Origin: Terriglobia bacterium
GTDB lineage: Bacteria; Acidobacteriota; Terriglobia; Terriglobales; Acidobacteriaceae
DNA length: 64,000 nucleotides
Assembly: GCA_020073495.1 (NCBI GenBank)
Contig: JAIQFD010000001.1
Coordinates: 744,001-808,000 of the forward strand
Direction: 5' to 3'
A model generated the notes under the pieces. The model was not told the DNA's origin and searched no databases. It worked only from the letters and a program-made list of their open reading frames with translations. A program made the translations under genes and the position numbers. Below, piece by piece: positions 777 to 24,243 of this stretch; position 1 is the first letter of the stretch, and the number at the start of each line of letters is the position of its first letter.

Positions 777-825
777 CTGCGCGTCTGCGAACAAGAAGCG
801 CCGTTGACGTGGAGAGGGCAACGGT

Positions 826-1512
826 CACTAGTGAGAAGGTCTGTTATCAACAGCTATGCCCGGGCGAGCCCTTGCTGGTGTCTAACACCGTAGAGAAACA
901 AATAGCCGCCCTTATGACACGAGCGTTCGTCACTCTCATTGCCATGTGCCTCGCTGCTCAGGGTGGTGCGCAAGAAAGCAGTCAGGCCGGGAGTAACAAG
1001 GCTGGCGGTGCACCTGCGGCTTCGTATGAAGTGTACTCAGCCGTGCTTAGCCAGCGGTACTCATCGTGGTTCAAGGCCCACCGGCCGCTTAGGATTGCCG
1101 CGCTGACGAAGGCGATTCCAGCCGGAGCTATCACGAACGATTGTCGTGCTCAGGTTCAACAAGATCAGCAAGAGGTTCAAGTCCTAAGTAGTCTGCTTGC
1201 AGCGAACAGACAAAGGCAGCGCCTCCAGAAGAAGCTTACTGTTCCGGGTGCGTATTCTCTTATTCGGGACAAAACGCAAATCAAGAATGGCGATTTCCCT
1301 GGCATTGTGTGGCTGTCCGCGATTGGTTTCTCGACGGACCAGCGGCATGCGATGGTGTACGTGCAGAGCTACTGTGGCCCACGTTGCGCTAGCGGGTATT
1401 TGTGGAAGCTCGATAAGAAAGATAATACTTGGCGCGTTGTTGGCGGAGGAATTTGCGGTTTCGTCTCGTAGCCGCTGCGTAACTGTTGTGAAATCCCCTT
1501 CTCACCAGTTAC
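826..1512. mobile_element. Inverted-repeat-bounded cargo unit 1
   Basis: A palindromic repeat at 826-856 and a related one in opposite orientation at 1479-1512 flank a single gene. Reverse-complementing the right copy and aligning it with the left gives 28 of 40 matching positions, including GTGAGAAGG and CAACAG. Each copy is itself an imperfect palindrome around a 6-nt loop: GGTCTG on the left, GGGGAT (reverse-complemented) on the right. The same left loop recurs at 19565-19596 and in the unit at 20619-21883. No transposase gene is inside. Mobility is inferred only from the repeated architecture. Confidence 0.5.
914..1471 (+). CDS. Secreted protein of unknown function (cargo of inverted-repeat unit 1)
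   Basis: I do not recognise this 185-residue protein. The frame is open from 773, but ATG 914 starts a convincing signal peptide (MTRAFVTLIAMCLAAQGGAQ), and the upstream extension would cross the palindromic repeat, so 914 is preferred. The mature part is polar, with an HRPLRIAALTKAI segment and a C-terminal region rich in Gly, Trp and Cys (YCGPRCASGYLWKLDKK, VVGGGICGFVS) that could form a small disulphide-stabilised beta domain in the periplasm. Its codon use is less GC-biased than uvrA or the kinase gene that follows, and it is the only gene between the two inverted repeats, which suggests transferred cargo. Confidence 0.6.
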   Translation: MTRAFVTLIAMCLAAQGGAQESSQAGSNKAGGAPAASYEVYSAVLSQRYSSWFKAHRPLRIAALTKAIPAGAITNDCRAQVQQDQQEVQVLSSLLAANRQRQRLQKKLTVPGAYSLIRDKTQIKNGDFPGIVWLSAIGFSTDQRHAMVYVQSYCGPRCASGYLWKLDKKDNTWRVVGGGICGFVS

Positions 1513-7587: not shown

Positions 7588-8913
7588 TCAGAAGCGGAAA
7601 GTTCTCCCAGGGCGCACCAGCGCTCCAGCTTGTAGACGCCCCCCACTCGGAATCGTTAGCTGCCCATTGAGCACCGTGGCTTGGCAGCGGTTTCCCGCCA
7701 CCCAGTACGGGATCTCACGGTAATCCCCCACATCGAACACCGCCAGGTCGGCGTCCTTCCCCGTCTCGATCGACCCCTTGCGCTCCCCCAGTCGCAGTGC
7801 GTGCGCTCCATTGATTGTACCTGCCGCGATGGCCTCCGCCGGCGTCATCTTCATTTGCGTGCACGCCAGCGACATCACGAACGCCATGCTGGTGGTCGGC
7901 GACGTCCCCGGGTTGTAATCCGTCGCCAGCGCCACTGGCACGCCCGCCTCTATCATCCGCCGCGCGTCCGGATATTGCTTCAGCCCGAGAAAATAATTCG
8001 CCCCCGGCAGCAGCGTCACCACCGTGTCCCGTCTCGCCAACTGCGGGATGTCCTCATCCCCCACGCAGTCCATGTGATCCAGCGACGCCGGCTTGAACCT
8101 CAGCAGACGCCACACCTCCGACGCCGTGAGCTGGCACATGTGCGCCCGCACCTCCAGCCCATGTTTCTGCGCCGCCTCGAAAATACGCTCCGCATCCTCG
8201 ACCGTGAACGCTCCGCGATCGCAGAAGATGTCCACGAACGCCGCCAGCTTCTTTTTCGCCGCCTGCGGGATCATCTTCTCCGCCACTTCGCGGACATATT
8301 TTTCTGGCTTGCCCTTGAACTCCGGCGGGACGACGTGCGCGCCCAGCAGCGTCGGCACCACCGTCCCCGGCCATTGCGCCGCCGCCTCCCGGATCGCCTC
8401 CAAGGATTTGATCTCCGCCTCCGTACTCAACCCATACCCCGACTTGGCTTCGACCGTCGTCGTCCCCTGCGCTCCCATCTCTTCCAGCGCCGCCAGCGCC
8501 TTTGCCGCCAGCTCTTTCACCGGCGCTTTCCGAACGCCCGCAACACTCGACCGGATCCCCCCACCCGCCTCCGCGATCTCCTCATATGTCGCGCCTGCCA
8601 CCCGCTTCTCGAAATCCACTAGCCGAGGCCCGGCGAAGATCAGGTGCGTGTGCGAATCCACGAACCCGGGCACCACCACTTTCCCCGCGCAGTCGATCTC
8701 CTCGATCTTCTTCCTGTTCTTCTTGATCCACGGATCACGCAGCGCGTCCTTCGTCGTCCCCGCCGACACGATCTTCCCGCCCGCGCACAGCACCGCACCG
8801 TCCTCGACGATGCCGAGCTCACGCAGCTCCGCCCCGCGCCTCGGCCCTTTCGCGCCACGCAGCGTCAGCAACTGCCCGATATTGGTCAGGAGAAGCGTTT
8901 TTTCGGTAGGCAC
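7588..8913 (-). CDS. hutI: Imidazolonepropionase
   Basis: A 441-residue amidohydrolase of histidine degradation that hydrolyses 4-imidazolone-5-propionate to N-formimidoyl-glutamate. The metal-binding VDSHTHLIFAG motif lies in the N-terminal third, and further metal and substrate residues are seen in LGAHVVP, VRAHMCQ and ATDYNPGTSP. The length is slightly above the usual 400-420. Its start is 3 bp after the stop of hutU, so the two are surely co-transcribed. hutH and hutG are not in this window. Confidence 0.95.
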   Translation of the reverse strand: MPTEKTLLLTNIGQLLTLRGAKGPRRGAELRELGIVEDGAVLCAGGKIVSAGTTKDALRDPWIKKNRKKIEEIDCAGKVVVPGFVDSHTHLIFAGPRLVDFEKRVAGATYEEIAEAGGGIRSSVAGVRKAPVKELAAKALAALEEMGAQGTTTVEAKSGYGLSTEAEIKSLEAIREAAAQWPGTVVPTLLGAHVVPPEFKGKPEKYVREVAEKMIPQAAKKKLAAFVDIFCDRGAFTVEDAERIFEAAQKHGLEVRAHMCQLTASEVWRLLRFKPASLDHMDCVGDEDIPQLARRDTVVTLLPGANYFLGLKQYPDARRMIEAGVPVALATDYNPGTSPTTSMAFVMSLACTQMKMTPAEAIAAGTINGAHALRLGERKGSIETGKDADLAVFDVGDYREIPYWVAGNRCQATVLNGQLTIPSGGRLQAGALVRPGRTFRF

Positions 8914-18855: not shown

Positions 18856-19039
18856 CCCTCTAGCCGGAATGGGTGGCGCAGGCCTTTAGGCCTGCATTCG
18901 GGCCGCGCGATAGATACCGGGCTTTAGCCCCTGAGGCATTGTTCCGCCTCAGCGGCTAAAGCCGTTCGTGGTTAGAACCTGTAAATGCAGGGCTGAAGCC
19001 CTGCTCCACCCCGATCCCGATCCCGATCCCGGCGATCCC
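18856..19039. repeat. Composite palindrome array (GCAGGCC/GGGCTTTAGCCC/GGCTAAAGCC type) and GATCCC repeat
   Basis: Consecutive palindromes GCAGGCCTTTAGGCCTGC, GGGCTTTAGCCC, CGGCTAAAGCCG and GCAGGGCTGAAGCCCTGC, bounded by GGTGGCGCAGG at the left and CTGCTCCACC at the right. Two other copies of this composite are at 31179-31313 and 57132-57276. A GATCCC tandem follows at 19012-19039. Apart from the hairpin, promoter and terminator listed separately, nothing else is seen between 18605 and 19068. Confidence 0.7.
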
Positions 19040-19068: not shown

Positions 19069-19566
19069 ATGCCTCCGAATTTCCGGCAGCCCAAACGCCG
19101 CGGCGAGTGGGCGGAGATCAAGTTCATGCTGCGCGCCACCGAGTGCGGCCTCACCGTGTCCAAACCCTATGGCGATTCGGCGCGTTTCGACTTCGTCGTC
19201 GGCTCGCGCGGCCCTCAATACCGCCTCCAGGTCCGCTCCACGCGCATTTTCACCAACTCCCGCGCCTACGTGACCCGTTTCACTTGGGGCGATCCTCCGC
19301 GCCGCTATTCCCGGCTCGATTTCGATTTCATTGCCGTCTACGTCGTTCCCTGCGACATCTGGTACGTAATCCCCATCTCCGCCATCCGTCCCGCGCCCCT
19401 CTACCTCTGCCTTTACCCTCACATTCGCCGCAGCCGAGGCCGCTTCGAACGCTTCCGCGAGGCGTGGAGTTTGTTGAAGCAGCCGCAAACCCAGCGCCGT
19501 AGGCGCGGAGCATGTGTAGCCCAGGACGGAAGAAAGGTAGTCACGCGATCGGGGACAGGCTGGTAA
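19069..19566 (+). CDS. Group I intron-type PD-(D/E)XK endonuclease-like protein
   Basis: A 165-residue protein resembling the PD-(D/E)XK family first linked to group I introns and frequent as solitary genes in Acidobacteria. The likely catalytic framework is visible: Glu in RRGEWAEIKFMLRA, Asp in ARFDFVVGSR, and a Q-x-R strand (YRLQVRSTR) in place of the usual E-x-K. IWYVIPISA and the PAPLYLCLYP motif are typical of the family. The last 25 residues are low-complexity Arg/Gly sequence encoded by a repeat, and the TAA stop lies inside the left palindrome of the next unit, so the original C-terminus was probably shorter. No intron is visible around it. Confidence 0.7.
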   Translation: MPPNFRQPKRRGEWAEIKFMLRATECGLTVSKPYGDSARFDFVVGSRGPQYRLQVRSTRIFTNSRAYVTRFTWGDPPRRYSRLDFDFIAVYVVPCDIWYVIPISAIRPAPLYLCLYPHIRRSRGRFERFREAWSLLKQPQTQRRRRGACVAQDGRKVVTRSGTGW

Positions 19567-19805
19567 GTGGTGATAAGGTCTGTTATCAACAGTTACGGCT
19601 TATGGGCCATTTTCTCCAAACAGTGATCGAGGAAGCACGACAAGGAATGAAGGAGGGCGGCATCCCCATCGGCTCGGTCATCGCCCATGCAGGCAAGGTC
19701 ATCGGTCGAGGTCACAACCGACGTGTGCGGCAAGGCAGCGCTATCCTGCACGGAGAGATGGACGCGCTGGAGCGTGCTGGTCGCCAGCCCGTGCGCGCCG
19801 TCTGA
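19565..19805 (+). mobile_element. Left end of an inverted-repeat cargo unit, truncated
   Basis: Positions 19565-19596 hold the best-preserved left palindrome: GTGATAAGGTCTGTTATCAA, with CTGGTGATAA/TTATCAACAG-type arms and GGTCTG loop. The deaminase gene starts 6 bp later. No right-end palindrome follows; the unit stops in the deaminase coding sequence before the terminator at 19824-19855. Confidence 0.5.
19602..19805 (+). pseudogene. Truncated cytosine/nucleoside deaminase
   Basis: 67 codons matching the N-terminal part of a fungal-type cytosine deaminase/CDA-fold enzyme: GGIPIGSVIAHAGKVIGRGH, then the zinc-site HGEMDALERAGRQP (His and catalytic Glu). The reading then stops after four unrelated residues, so the second zinc motif (PCxxC) and the rest of the roughly 145-residue protein are missing. 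This looks like a deletion join to the downstream terminator. The fragment cannot be an active deaminase. Confidence 0.75.
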
Positions 19806-20618: not shown

Positions 20619-21883
20619 CCGATCAGGCGAACAAACGGCGCACGCTTGTGCTAAGGTCTGTTATCGTAAGTTGACCTGTTCGATAATCTGTGGGATGGCA
20701 TCAACCCTCTGCAATCGACTCTTCCGGGTTGCGCGATTAATGGGCGTAGTATCCTGCCTTTCGCTCTATGCAGCTGCCCAGGCGACAAGTTCCTCTCCCC
20801 CAACCAAAGAGCCGCTCCTCATCGTAAAGGATGGGAAGTACGGCTTCATCGACCACAACGGTGCGGTCGTCATCAAGCCACAATACTACTGGGCGACGGA
20901 TTTCCACGACGGCTTCGCAGAGGTGTTCGTTTGCGGTCGCCTAGTCTCAATCGATGCTTCGGGGAAGTTCCTCCCGCACAGGCCAGGTACGACGCAATTG
21001 GGCGTAAAGCGCGAAGGTGAGAAGGTTGGATTCGTCGATGGAACAGGCAAATTCATAATACAGCCCGTCTACGATCATGCCCTGCCATTCTCAGATGGCC
21101 TTGCTGCCGTCGAAGTGCAGGGCCGTTGGGGGTTCGTTGATACTTCAGGTCACGAGGTGATCCCGCCGACCTTCAAGGCTGCCTATTACTTTCAGCAGGG
21201 CGTTGCGAGTGCGGAAAGCGACGAAGGCGAAGTACTGATTGATAGAGACGGAACCGTCCTTGCCAAAGGCTTCCAACAACTCACGGGTGGCGTGTCGGAG
21301 GGCCGTATACCCGTTAGTCGCAACGATAAATACGGATACTTAGACTTGCGCGGCAAAGTAGCCATACCGCTGATCTACGAACTGGCTCTTTCCTTTGGCA
21401 ATGGGCTGGCTCCGGTCAAGAAATCTGGAAAGTGGGGCTACATCGATCGCGACGGCCAAGTGGTGATCCCGTTTAAGTTCGACGAGGCAGACGTATTCGC
21501 TAGTGGGTTAGCGCCTGCTCGAATCGGTGCAGAGACCGGATTCATAAACCGCTCGGGAGCATTCGCGTTTCATTTGGCGTATCAATCTGCGCCGGGCTTC
21601 TTCGGGTCAGACAATGAGGCTGCGGAGAACGACGTGTCCCGCTTCTTCACGGCAGACAACGGATTTGGATATGTGAATACATCTGGAAAGGTCATTTGGG
21701 GGCCGACGGTCGGCAGTCCAGATCACGCTCCCATCCTCGGCTGGGACGACGAAGATCGTGCAAGGAGCTGCGACGGCATTTCTCAGGACGTGCGCAACAT
21801 GGTCGCCAGCTTTCCTCCCGAATAGGTCAACTTCCGATAAATCGCCTTATCACCAGTTTGCGCCTTTTGTTCGCGAAAATCGG
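20619..21883. mobile_element. Inverted-repeat-bounded cargo unit 2 (WG-repeat gene)
   Basis: The left repeat (20619-20676) and the inverted right repeat (21825-21883) match over nearly 60 bp. The inner 33 positions share 25 identities, including CTAAGG/ATAAGG, TTATCG and AAGTTGACC. The outer part shares GCGAACAAA-GGCGCA and CCGAT. As in unit 1 the left loop is GGTCTG and the right loop reads as G(C)GAT. One gene fills the interior and its stop codon directly touches the right repeat. There is no transposase. Confidence 0.6.
20695..21825 (+). CDS. Secreted WG-repeat (KWG) protein, cargo of inverted-repeat unit 2
   Basis: A 376-residue protein made of consecutive WG beta repeats: KYGFIDHNGAVVIKPQY, KVGFVDGTGKFIIQPVYD, RWGFVDTSGHEVIPPTF, KYGYLDLRGKVAIPLIY, KWGYIDRDGQVVIPFKFD, TGFINRSGAFAF and FGYVNTSGKVIWGP. 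ATG 20695 gives a signal peptide with core LMGVVSCLSLYAAAQA; a TTG at 20671 lies inside the palindrome and is not preferred. WG repeats are thought to mediate protein contacts at the envelope or outside the cell; no partner can be named. Base composition is clearly less GC-rich than argS next door, supporting acquisition. Confidence 0.85.
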   Translation: MASTLCNRLFRVARLMGVVSCLSLYAAAQATSSSPPTKEPLLIVKDGKYGFIDHNGAVVIKPQYYWATDFHDGFAEVFVCGRLVSIDASGKFLPHRPGTTQLGVKREGEKVGFVDGTGKFIIQPVYDHALPFSDGLAAVEVQGRWGFVDTSGHEVIPPTFKAAYYFQQGVASAESDEGEVLIDRDGTVLAKGFQQLTGGVSEGRIPVSRNDKYGYLDLRGKVAIPLIYELALSFGNGLAPVKKSGKWGYIDRDGQVVIPFKFDEADVFASGLAPARIGAETGFINRSGAFAFHLAYQSAPGFFGSDNEAAENDVSRFFTADNGFGYVNTSGKVIWGPTVGSPDHAPILGWDDEDRARSCDGISQDVRNMVASFPPE

Positions 21884-24187: not shown

Positions 24188-24243
24188 GGTGTCATCCTGA
24201 GCGAGCGCGCCCGCATGGGGCGCGCGAGTCGAAGGACCCCTAC
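24188..24243. repeat. Hairpin element upstream of larC
   Basis: GTCATCCTGAGCG, an inner inverted repeat GCGCGCCC...GGGCGCGC, and GTCGAAGGACCCCTA. It ends 8 bp before the larC start, so the AAGGA of the element is about 15 bp upstream of ATG. Confidence 0.65.

Follow-up and report, generated by a model that had tools for sequence, protein, structure and literature searches.

On balance, and with a confidence just above even, we read the WG-repeat gene in the 64,000-nucleotide stretch of Terriglobia DNA analysed here (the window) as the cargo of a mobile single-gene chromosomal cassette, bounded by two inverse core sites of the tyrosine-recombinase type. The cassette nature of this and the related modules is well supported; for the mechanism and the enzyme we infer a recombinase, probably of the tyrosine class, that would act in trans within a chromosomal system resembling dif modules or integrons.

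The cargo gene (20695..21825, forward strand) starts with ATG at 20695, an alternative TTG start being possible at 20671, and encodes a 376 aa protein matching PF14903 (E 1e-59), which carries a signal peptide predicted by reading of the sequence and is probably exported. It is the sole gene between inverted arms at 20627-20682 and 21819-21874, which are 56 nt long and match at 45 positions (80%); the chance of such a match is about 5e-11 by a simple binomial estimate for a 1.9-kb region. The initial annotation had described these repeats with coordinates a few bases off, and it was correct about their outer blocks GCGAACAAA-GGCGCA, about the gene filling the space between them up to a stop codon that touches the right repeat (at 21825, it lies inside), about the lack of a transposase in between and about a composition unlike that of the neighbours: the GC content of the element is 0.551 versus 0.636 for the window, in which no other 1.2-kb stretch is as low. 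The left repeat (forward strand, covariance-model E 6e-5) contains a 34-bp core at 20641-20674 with the 29-mer GCTTGTGCTAA-GGTCTG-TTATCGTAAGTT at 20644-20672, besides an outer block GCGAACAAACGGCGCAC and an inner extension GACCTGTTCG; the right repeat (reverse strand, covariance-model E 1.9e-6) contains the core 29-mer ACTGGTGATAA-GGCGAT-TTATCGGAAGTT at 21829-21857 and the outer block GCGAACAAAAGGCGCAA. Mismatches between the arms concentrate in the 4-nt centre, TCTG versus CGAT (6-bp centres GGTCTG versus GGCGAT), and this difference turned out to define two types of end, B on the left and A on the right. The left end is a hybrid, as it combines a B centre with an A1-type outer block, which is otherwise characteristic of A ends.

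Searches of the source genome (G000; 3.70 Mb in 8 contigs) with each arm of the module returned more copies, in inverted pairs. Its methionyl-tRNA synthetase places this genome closest, among named relatives, to MAGs of Acidobacteriota (70-74% identity), Candidatus Korobacter versatilis being one of them. A pattern search allowing up to 3 mismatches found 41 sites, with none for the reversed-pattern control, and a covariance model found about 70; approximately 600 kb of the genome surrounding the sites was read directly. The site is a near-palindrome of 29-34 bp (consensus GTAACTGGTGAKAAG-N5-TTMTCAACAGTTAC) with inverted arms of 11-14 bp and a constant 6-bp centre, a layout comparable to that of the lox/dif core. 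Two types of centre exist, A (..NGAT; GGGGAT, GAGGAT, GGCGAT) and B (..NCTG; GGTCTG, GGGCTG), and the sites occur in inverted pairs around cargo that is mostly a single gene, solo, or in tandem arrays. The genome search advised by the initial annotation thus gave about 70 recurrences whose pairs enclose differing cargo, and its extension to relatives showed the same ends around cargo in other genera and families. The arms differ in G033, a genome of another genus in the same family, and the A and B centres are unchanged there. Under strict filters and with rough E-values, at least one site was found in 25 of 200 genomes of the class, several families among them; some of the compared genomes are fragmented drafts. 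Neither the named contigs of GTDB r220 nor viral contigs contained a match to the exact site pattern, and therefore few named hosts of the sites are given here.

The outer blocks vary, falling into several unrelated classes and being frequently absent. Eight B sites (C1:294873, C1:363301, C2:323401, C2:714959, C2:530855, C6:42860 and C8:5831 in the source genome, and L145:518) have the palindrome TTGTGGTCGCTGANATCACGACCACAA at a distance of exactly 48 nt on their outer side, with no full copy elsewhere in the DNA examined. We asked whether this cap is a REP or an insertion target in its own right and rejected the idea: its position is fixed in all eight full copies, and the cap thus belongs to that end class. 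Two other kinds of short repeat were seen in the window, namely a dispersed repeat at 24190-24242, of which G033 has dozens of copies (~80-87%) and G001, a genome of the same genus as the source, has several, and a separate dispersed palindromic repeat at 18870-18936 and 18947-19012 with many copies in the genome G024.

The pairing of the sites follows a strict rule, which was observed with a site detection that is blind to pairing. In three genomes, 29 of the 31 facing neighbour pairs consist of one A and one B site, while A/A and B/B pairs number zero; the remaining two include an unclassified centre, one being GGTCTA, a variant of B. All ten clear pairs in other Terriglobia genomes are likewise A with B, and two weaker pairs are compatible with it. 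The modules measure mostly 0.6-3 kb and are usually filled by one gene, and the cargo families include WG repeats, PEP-CTERM, glycosyltransferase, HEAT, TPR, STAS, protein kinases, TonB-type receptor and ABC transporter; some 7.9 kb between a B and an A site (C2:715007-722923) are taken up by an operon that is hydrogenase-like, as judged only from reading its sequence. The PEP-CTERM modules at C4:177142 and at the ends of C5 and C7 have nearly identical DNA in common at contig ends, which one would expect of repeated modules. A module at L298:4997-8149 carries a possible defence gene: its product of 1050 aa has an N-terminus resembling a TIR domain, as judged by reading.

A second module stands in the window itself: a B-type site at 824..857 (forward strand, covariance-model E 4e-7), a gene at 872..1471 (forward strand) for a protein of 199 aa without a confident Pfam family, and an A-type site at 1479..1512 (reverse strand, covariance-model E 8e-9). 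Related cargo is found again in separate modules, since the product of this gene shares 41% identity over 152 aa with the cargo of an array module (C6:40138-40689), and the WG-repeat protein of the window shares 34% with that of a WG module in G033. An unpaired B-type site (19563..19596, forward strand, E 8e-9) lies directly 3' of a PD-(D/E)XK endonuclease-like ORF (19069-19566, PF11645), which ends at the site; an ORF of similar appearance stands before the A site at C2:529273. In arrays the order is A-gene-B', linker, A-gene-B', with a B'-to-A start-to-start spacing of 59-60 nt at most junctions of the source genome and 49-50 nt in G033 (exceptions 37-66 nt), so that a junction comprises two sites and a linker, usually of 30 nt in the former and 20 nt in the latter. 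In the source genome, the genes point either way with respect to A and B.

The comparison with relatives adds an empty locus, which the initial annotation had advised to look for: the module at C6:136523-137148 is absent from both G001 and G033, where the matching intergenic region is intact, short and site-free. The absence in both relatives polarises the event as a gain in the source genome. No convincing target duplication was seen at this insertion, where the intergenic DNA (~80% identity) is too diverged for a base-exact boundary. Larger accessory insertions with modules were found at C1:744782-748173, C7:110541-113429 and C6:38314-43087. The flanks of the WG module of the window fall on two contigs of G001, a synteny break at which an empty site is not readable.

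Independent witnesses of the sites as a conserved target are the insertion sequences that have entered them. An IS110/IS1111-family element of 1421 bp (PF01548, PF02371) interrupts three A sites of G033 exactly at their centres (L148:5679-7099, forward strand; L147, ending near 7623, reverse strand; L150:586-2006, forward strand), and related copies occupy three A sites of the source genome (C4:3326, C4:6464, C2:325063). No such insertion was seen in B sites, compared with these six in A sites of two genera; the preference for the A centre could be readable from a guide RNA, if the element has one. Elements of the IS1595 family sit inside TGCTAAGG of A1-type outer arms in three places (L021:12303-14467; L024:3600-8760; L029:18513 to L032:978), and this 8-bp sequence (TGCTAAGG/TGCTCAGG) is present on both sides wherever both ends could be read. 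These elements are not the engine of the modules. A multi-copy sequence beginning ATTAATGAGATGGTCCGC and joined to A half-sites was considered as such an engine and rejected, as it is the IS110/IS1111-family element at the A centre. Insertion sequences that target pdif sites have already been described (PMC10132070).

The mechanism that we propose for the cassettes is as follows. A recombinase supplied in trans would bind the arms of the site, and strands would be exchanged within the 6-bp centre. Exchange by tyrosine recombinases requires matching centres. For this reason A would recombine only with A and B only with B, and since each module has one end of either type, it would be acquired, lost or exchanged among loci, if the system is active at present, yet its own two ends would not invert it, in line with what has been inferred for Acinetobacter dif modules. 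In dif modules, too, it is the identity of the spacers that controls exchange (PMC13141974). Successive modules would stack in the order seen in the arrays. The type of the outer arm varies almost independently of both the centre class (p 0.02) and the inner arm (p 0.12), and the inner arm tracks the centre class (p < 0.0002). Together with the hybrid left end of the WG module, this assortment of half-sites would be the expected, if indirect, trace of exchange near the centre. Compensatory pairing between the arms is at most weak (77.0% versus 75.5% in shuffles, and 72.6% versus 70.4% in a wider set, where the counts of pair types are no higher than in shuffles), which indicates that the sites are probably recognized as duplex DNA and not as hairpins.

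The nearest known systems are the dif/pdif modules of Acinetobacter plasmids and chromosomes (PMC13141974, PMC6449649, PMC12907356), in which accessory genes also lie between inverse near-palindromic sites with a 6-bp spacer. Serial modules, alternating site orientation and sites targeted by insertion sequences (PMC10132070) are common to both, and the Terriglobia sites have the same geometry of approximately 11-6-11 bp with inverted arms. Unlike in dif/pdif modules, however, the arms are near-symmetric and do not match the host dif, exactly two spacer classes exist, one per end, adjacent modules are joined by two sites with a 20-30-nt linker and do not share a site, and the modules are chromosomal and spread over an Acidobacteriota class, with XerCD not implicated. 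The two sites and linker between neighbours, where one shared site would be expected, speak against the cassette model itself, as do the long conserved outer blocks on some ends (the 48-nt palindrome of eight B sites), which exceed a plain core site. So do the empty loci that carry no residual site: the model leaves entry into a site-free locus unexplained, as is likewise the case for dif modules.

The enzyme was sought in several places. The cargo of about 43 modules contains neither a recombinase nor a transposase, and none of the recombinases of the source genome could be tied to the sites. The host dif is ATGTCCGATAA-GAAGTA-TTATGTTAACT, with which the arms of the site consensus agree at about 6 of 11 positions each; host XerCD is therefore unlikely, and the idea that the sites are host dif was rejected, as both arms differ from it. 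On C3, a gene for a tyrosine recombinase lies some 1.7 kb away from a weak site; it was dismissed as module cargo because no partner site turned up downstream. Two adjacent Xer-like tyrosine recombinase genes lie at C2:773669-775053, a layout unexpected for xerC and xerD. No excised or circular module and no rearrangement with an identical centre was observed. Thus, of the cassette mobilised in trans that the initial annotation had proposed, the cassette part stands on recurrent paired ends with varied cargo, and mobilisation in trans may be retained as a conjecture, the autonomous element with the same ends and the enzyme having been looked for and not found.

One would argue that the modules are non-autonomous DDE transposons, whose terminal inverted repeats would be the 55-75-bp ends, with A and B as left and right ends and a transposase acting in trans. 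We consider this unlikely, yet it deserves the most attention among the alternatives. It would account for related but non-identical ends in fixed pairing, which many transposons have, for conserved outer blocks beyond the core (GCGAANNAAAAGCGC; the cap palindrome), for insertion into site-free intergenic DNA without a residual site and for the non-homologous locations of the modules. However, transposon tips should be constant within a family, whereas the outer blocks form several classes, are often missing and assort nearly independently of the inner halves; also, no target duplication was evident at the C6 insertion, within the limits of its boundary, and autonomous copies are lacking among the modules examined. 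Transposons of the MITE-like or passenger-gene type share with the modules inverted termini, the lack of a transposase and insertion polymorphism, but the modules differ from them by a near-palindromic core and by outer blocks that can be exchanged, and neither an autonomous relative nor a target duplication was seen.

A less probable explanation, which we would give only a small chance, is that a single-strand HUH (Y1) transposase of the RAYT/TIRYT type uses the palindromes as its REP- or TIRtron-like ends and that genes were captured between two inverted copies. Y1 transposase genes are indeed present (8 in the source genome, 11 in G001, 4 in G033), one of them about 350 bp from a B site, and K. 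versatilis has Y1 genes flanked by terminal inverted repeats, one with a repeated family of them (PMC3733652); this family, known here by description only, was reported as unidentified. TIRtrons and REPtrons, including those of Koribacter versatilis, resemble our sites: they too form a family of palindromic repeats, belong to this bacterial group and frequently stand as inverted pairs (PMC3733652). On the other hand, Y1 genes also occur in genomes without detected sites, 28 of 30 Y1 loci are without a strong site, two have one in range and none of the 30 is flanked by a pair. Y1/RAYT enzymes were rejected as the engine, as the Y1 genes examined carry their own, unrelated inverted repeats. Moreover, in contrast to TIRtrons and REPtrons, the Terriglobia sites stand in fixed A/B pairs around genes of any kind, and their arms do not covary as hairpin stems would be expected to.

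It is still more improbable that the modules form an integron-like array, in which the B'-linker-A junction would be an attC-like double site and the cassettes would be moved by an integron integrase. Some IS1111-type elements target attC. The insertion of such elements in the sites, the diverse single-gene cargo and the arrays with junctions of about 80-90 bp, made of two inverted simple sites with 6-bp spacers, are features that attC cassettes and the Terriglobia modules share. Nevertheless, no integrase was found among the recombinases scanned: four tyrosine recombinases other than the two Xer-like ones score 31-56 bits against the TIGR02249 cut-off of 265. Gene orientation is mixed, while attC always stands 3' in a uniform direction; both ends of each module are marked, and arrays terminate in a single half-unit (A or B') and not in a full junction. 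The attC boxes RYYYAAC/GTTRRRY were not seen in a comparison by eye only, and the site arms end in AGTTA(C/T/G). A classical integron is already mostly refuted. A role of the repeats as regulatory operators, terminators or insulators beside acquired genes, which the initial annotation had named as the opposing case in the form of unpaired terminators or regulators, is hardly credible: the palindromes adjoin genes and some stop codons touch a site, but the strict inverted A/B pairing, the tandem arrays, the joint loss of both sites and the gene in relatives, the targeting by insertion sequences and the lack of a poly-T tract contradict it.

Returning to the cassette reading, we found no prior description of such units in Acidobacteriota in the open-access literature, and the A/B-paired single-gene modules of soil Acidobacteria look like a previously unnoticed gene-moving system. 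Gene-cassette systems speed the gain of accessory functions, and few kinds of them are known. Tentatively, and with clearly less confidence than we place in the cassette itself, the modules might represent a third kind of bacterial gene cassette beside integrons and dif modules, spread over the Terriglobia, served by a dedicated recombinase in trans and able to bring nearly any gene into site-free DNA. The question posed by these findings is which enzyme acts on the A and B sites. Acidobacteriota are a dominant and poorly tractable group of soil bacteria; a class-wide system of this kind, if true, would explain a part of their accessory genome, and the A/B site pairs would offer a simple marker for listing mobile genes of unknown function.
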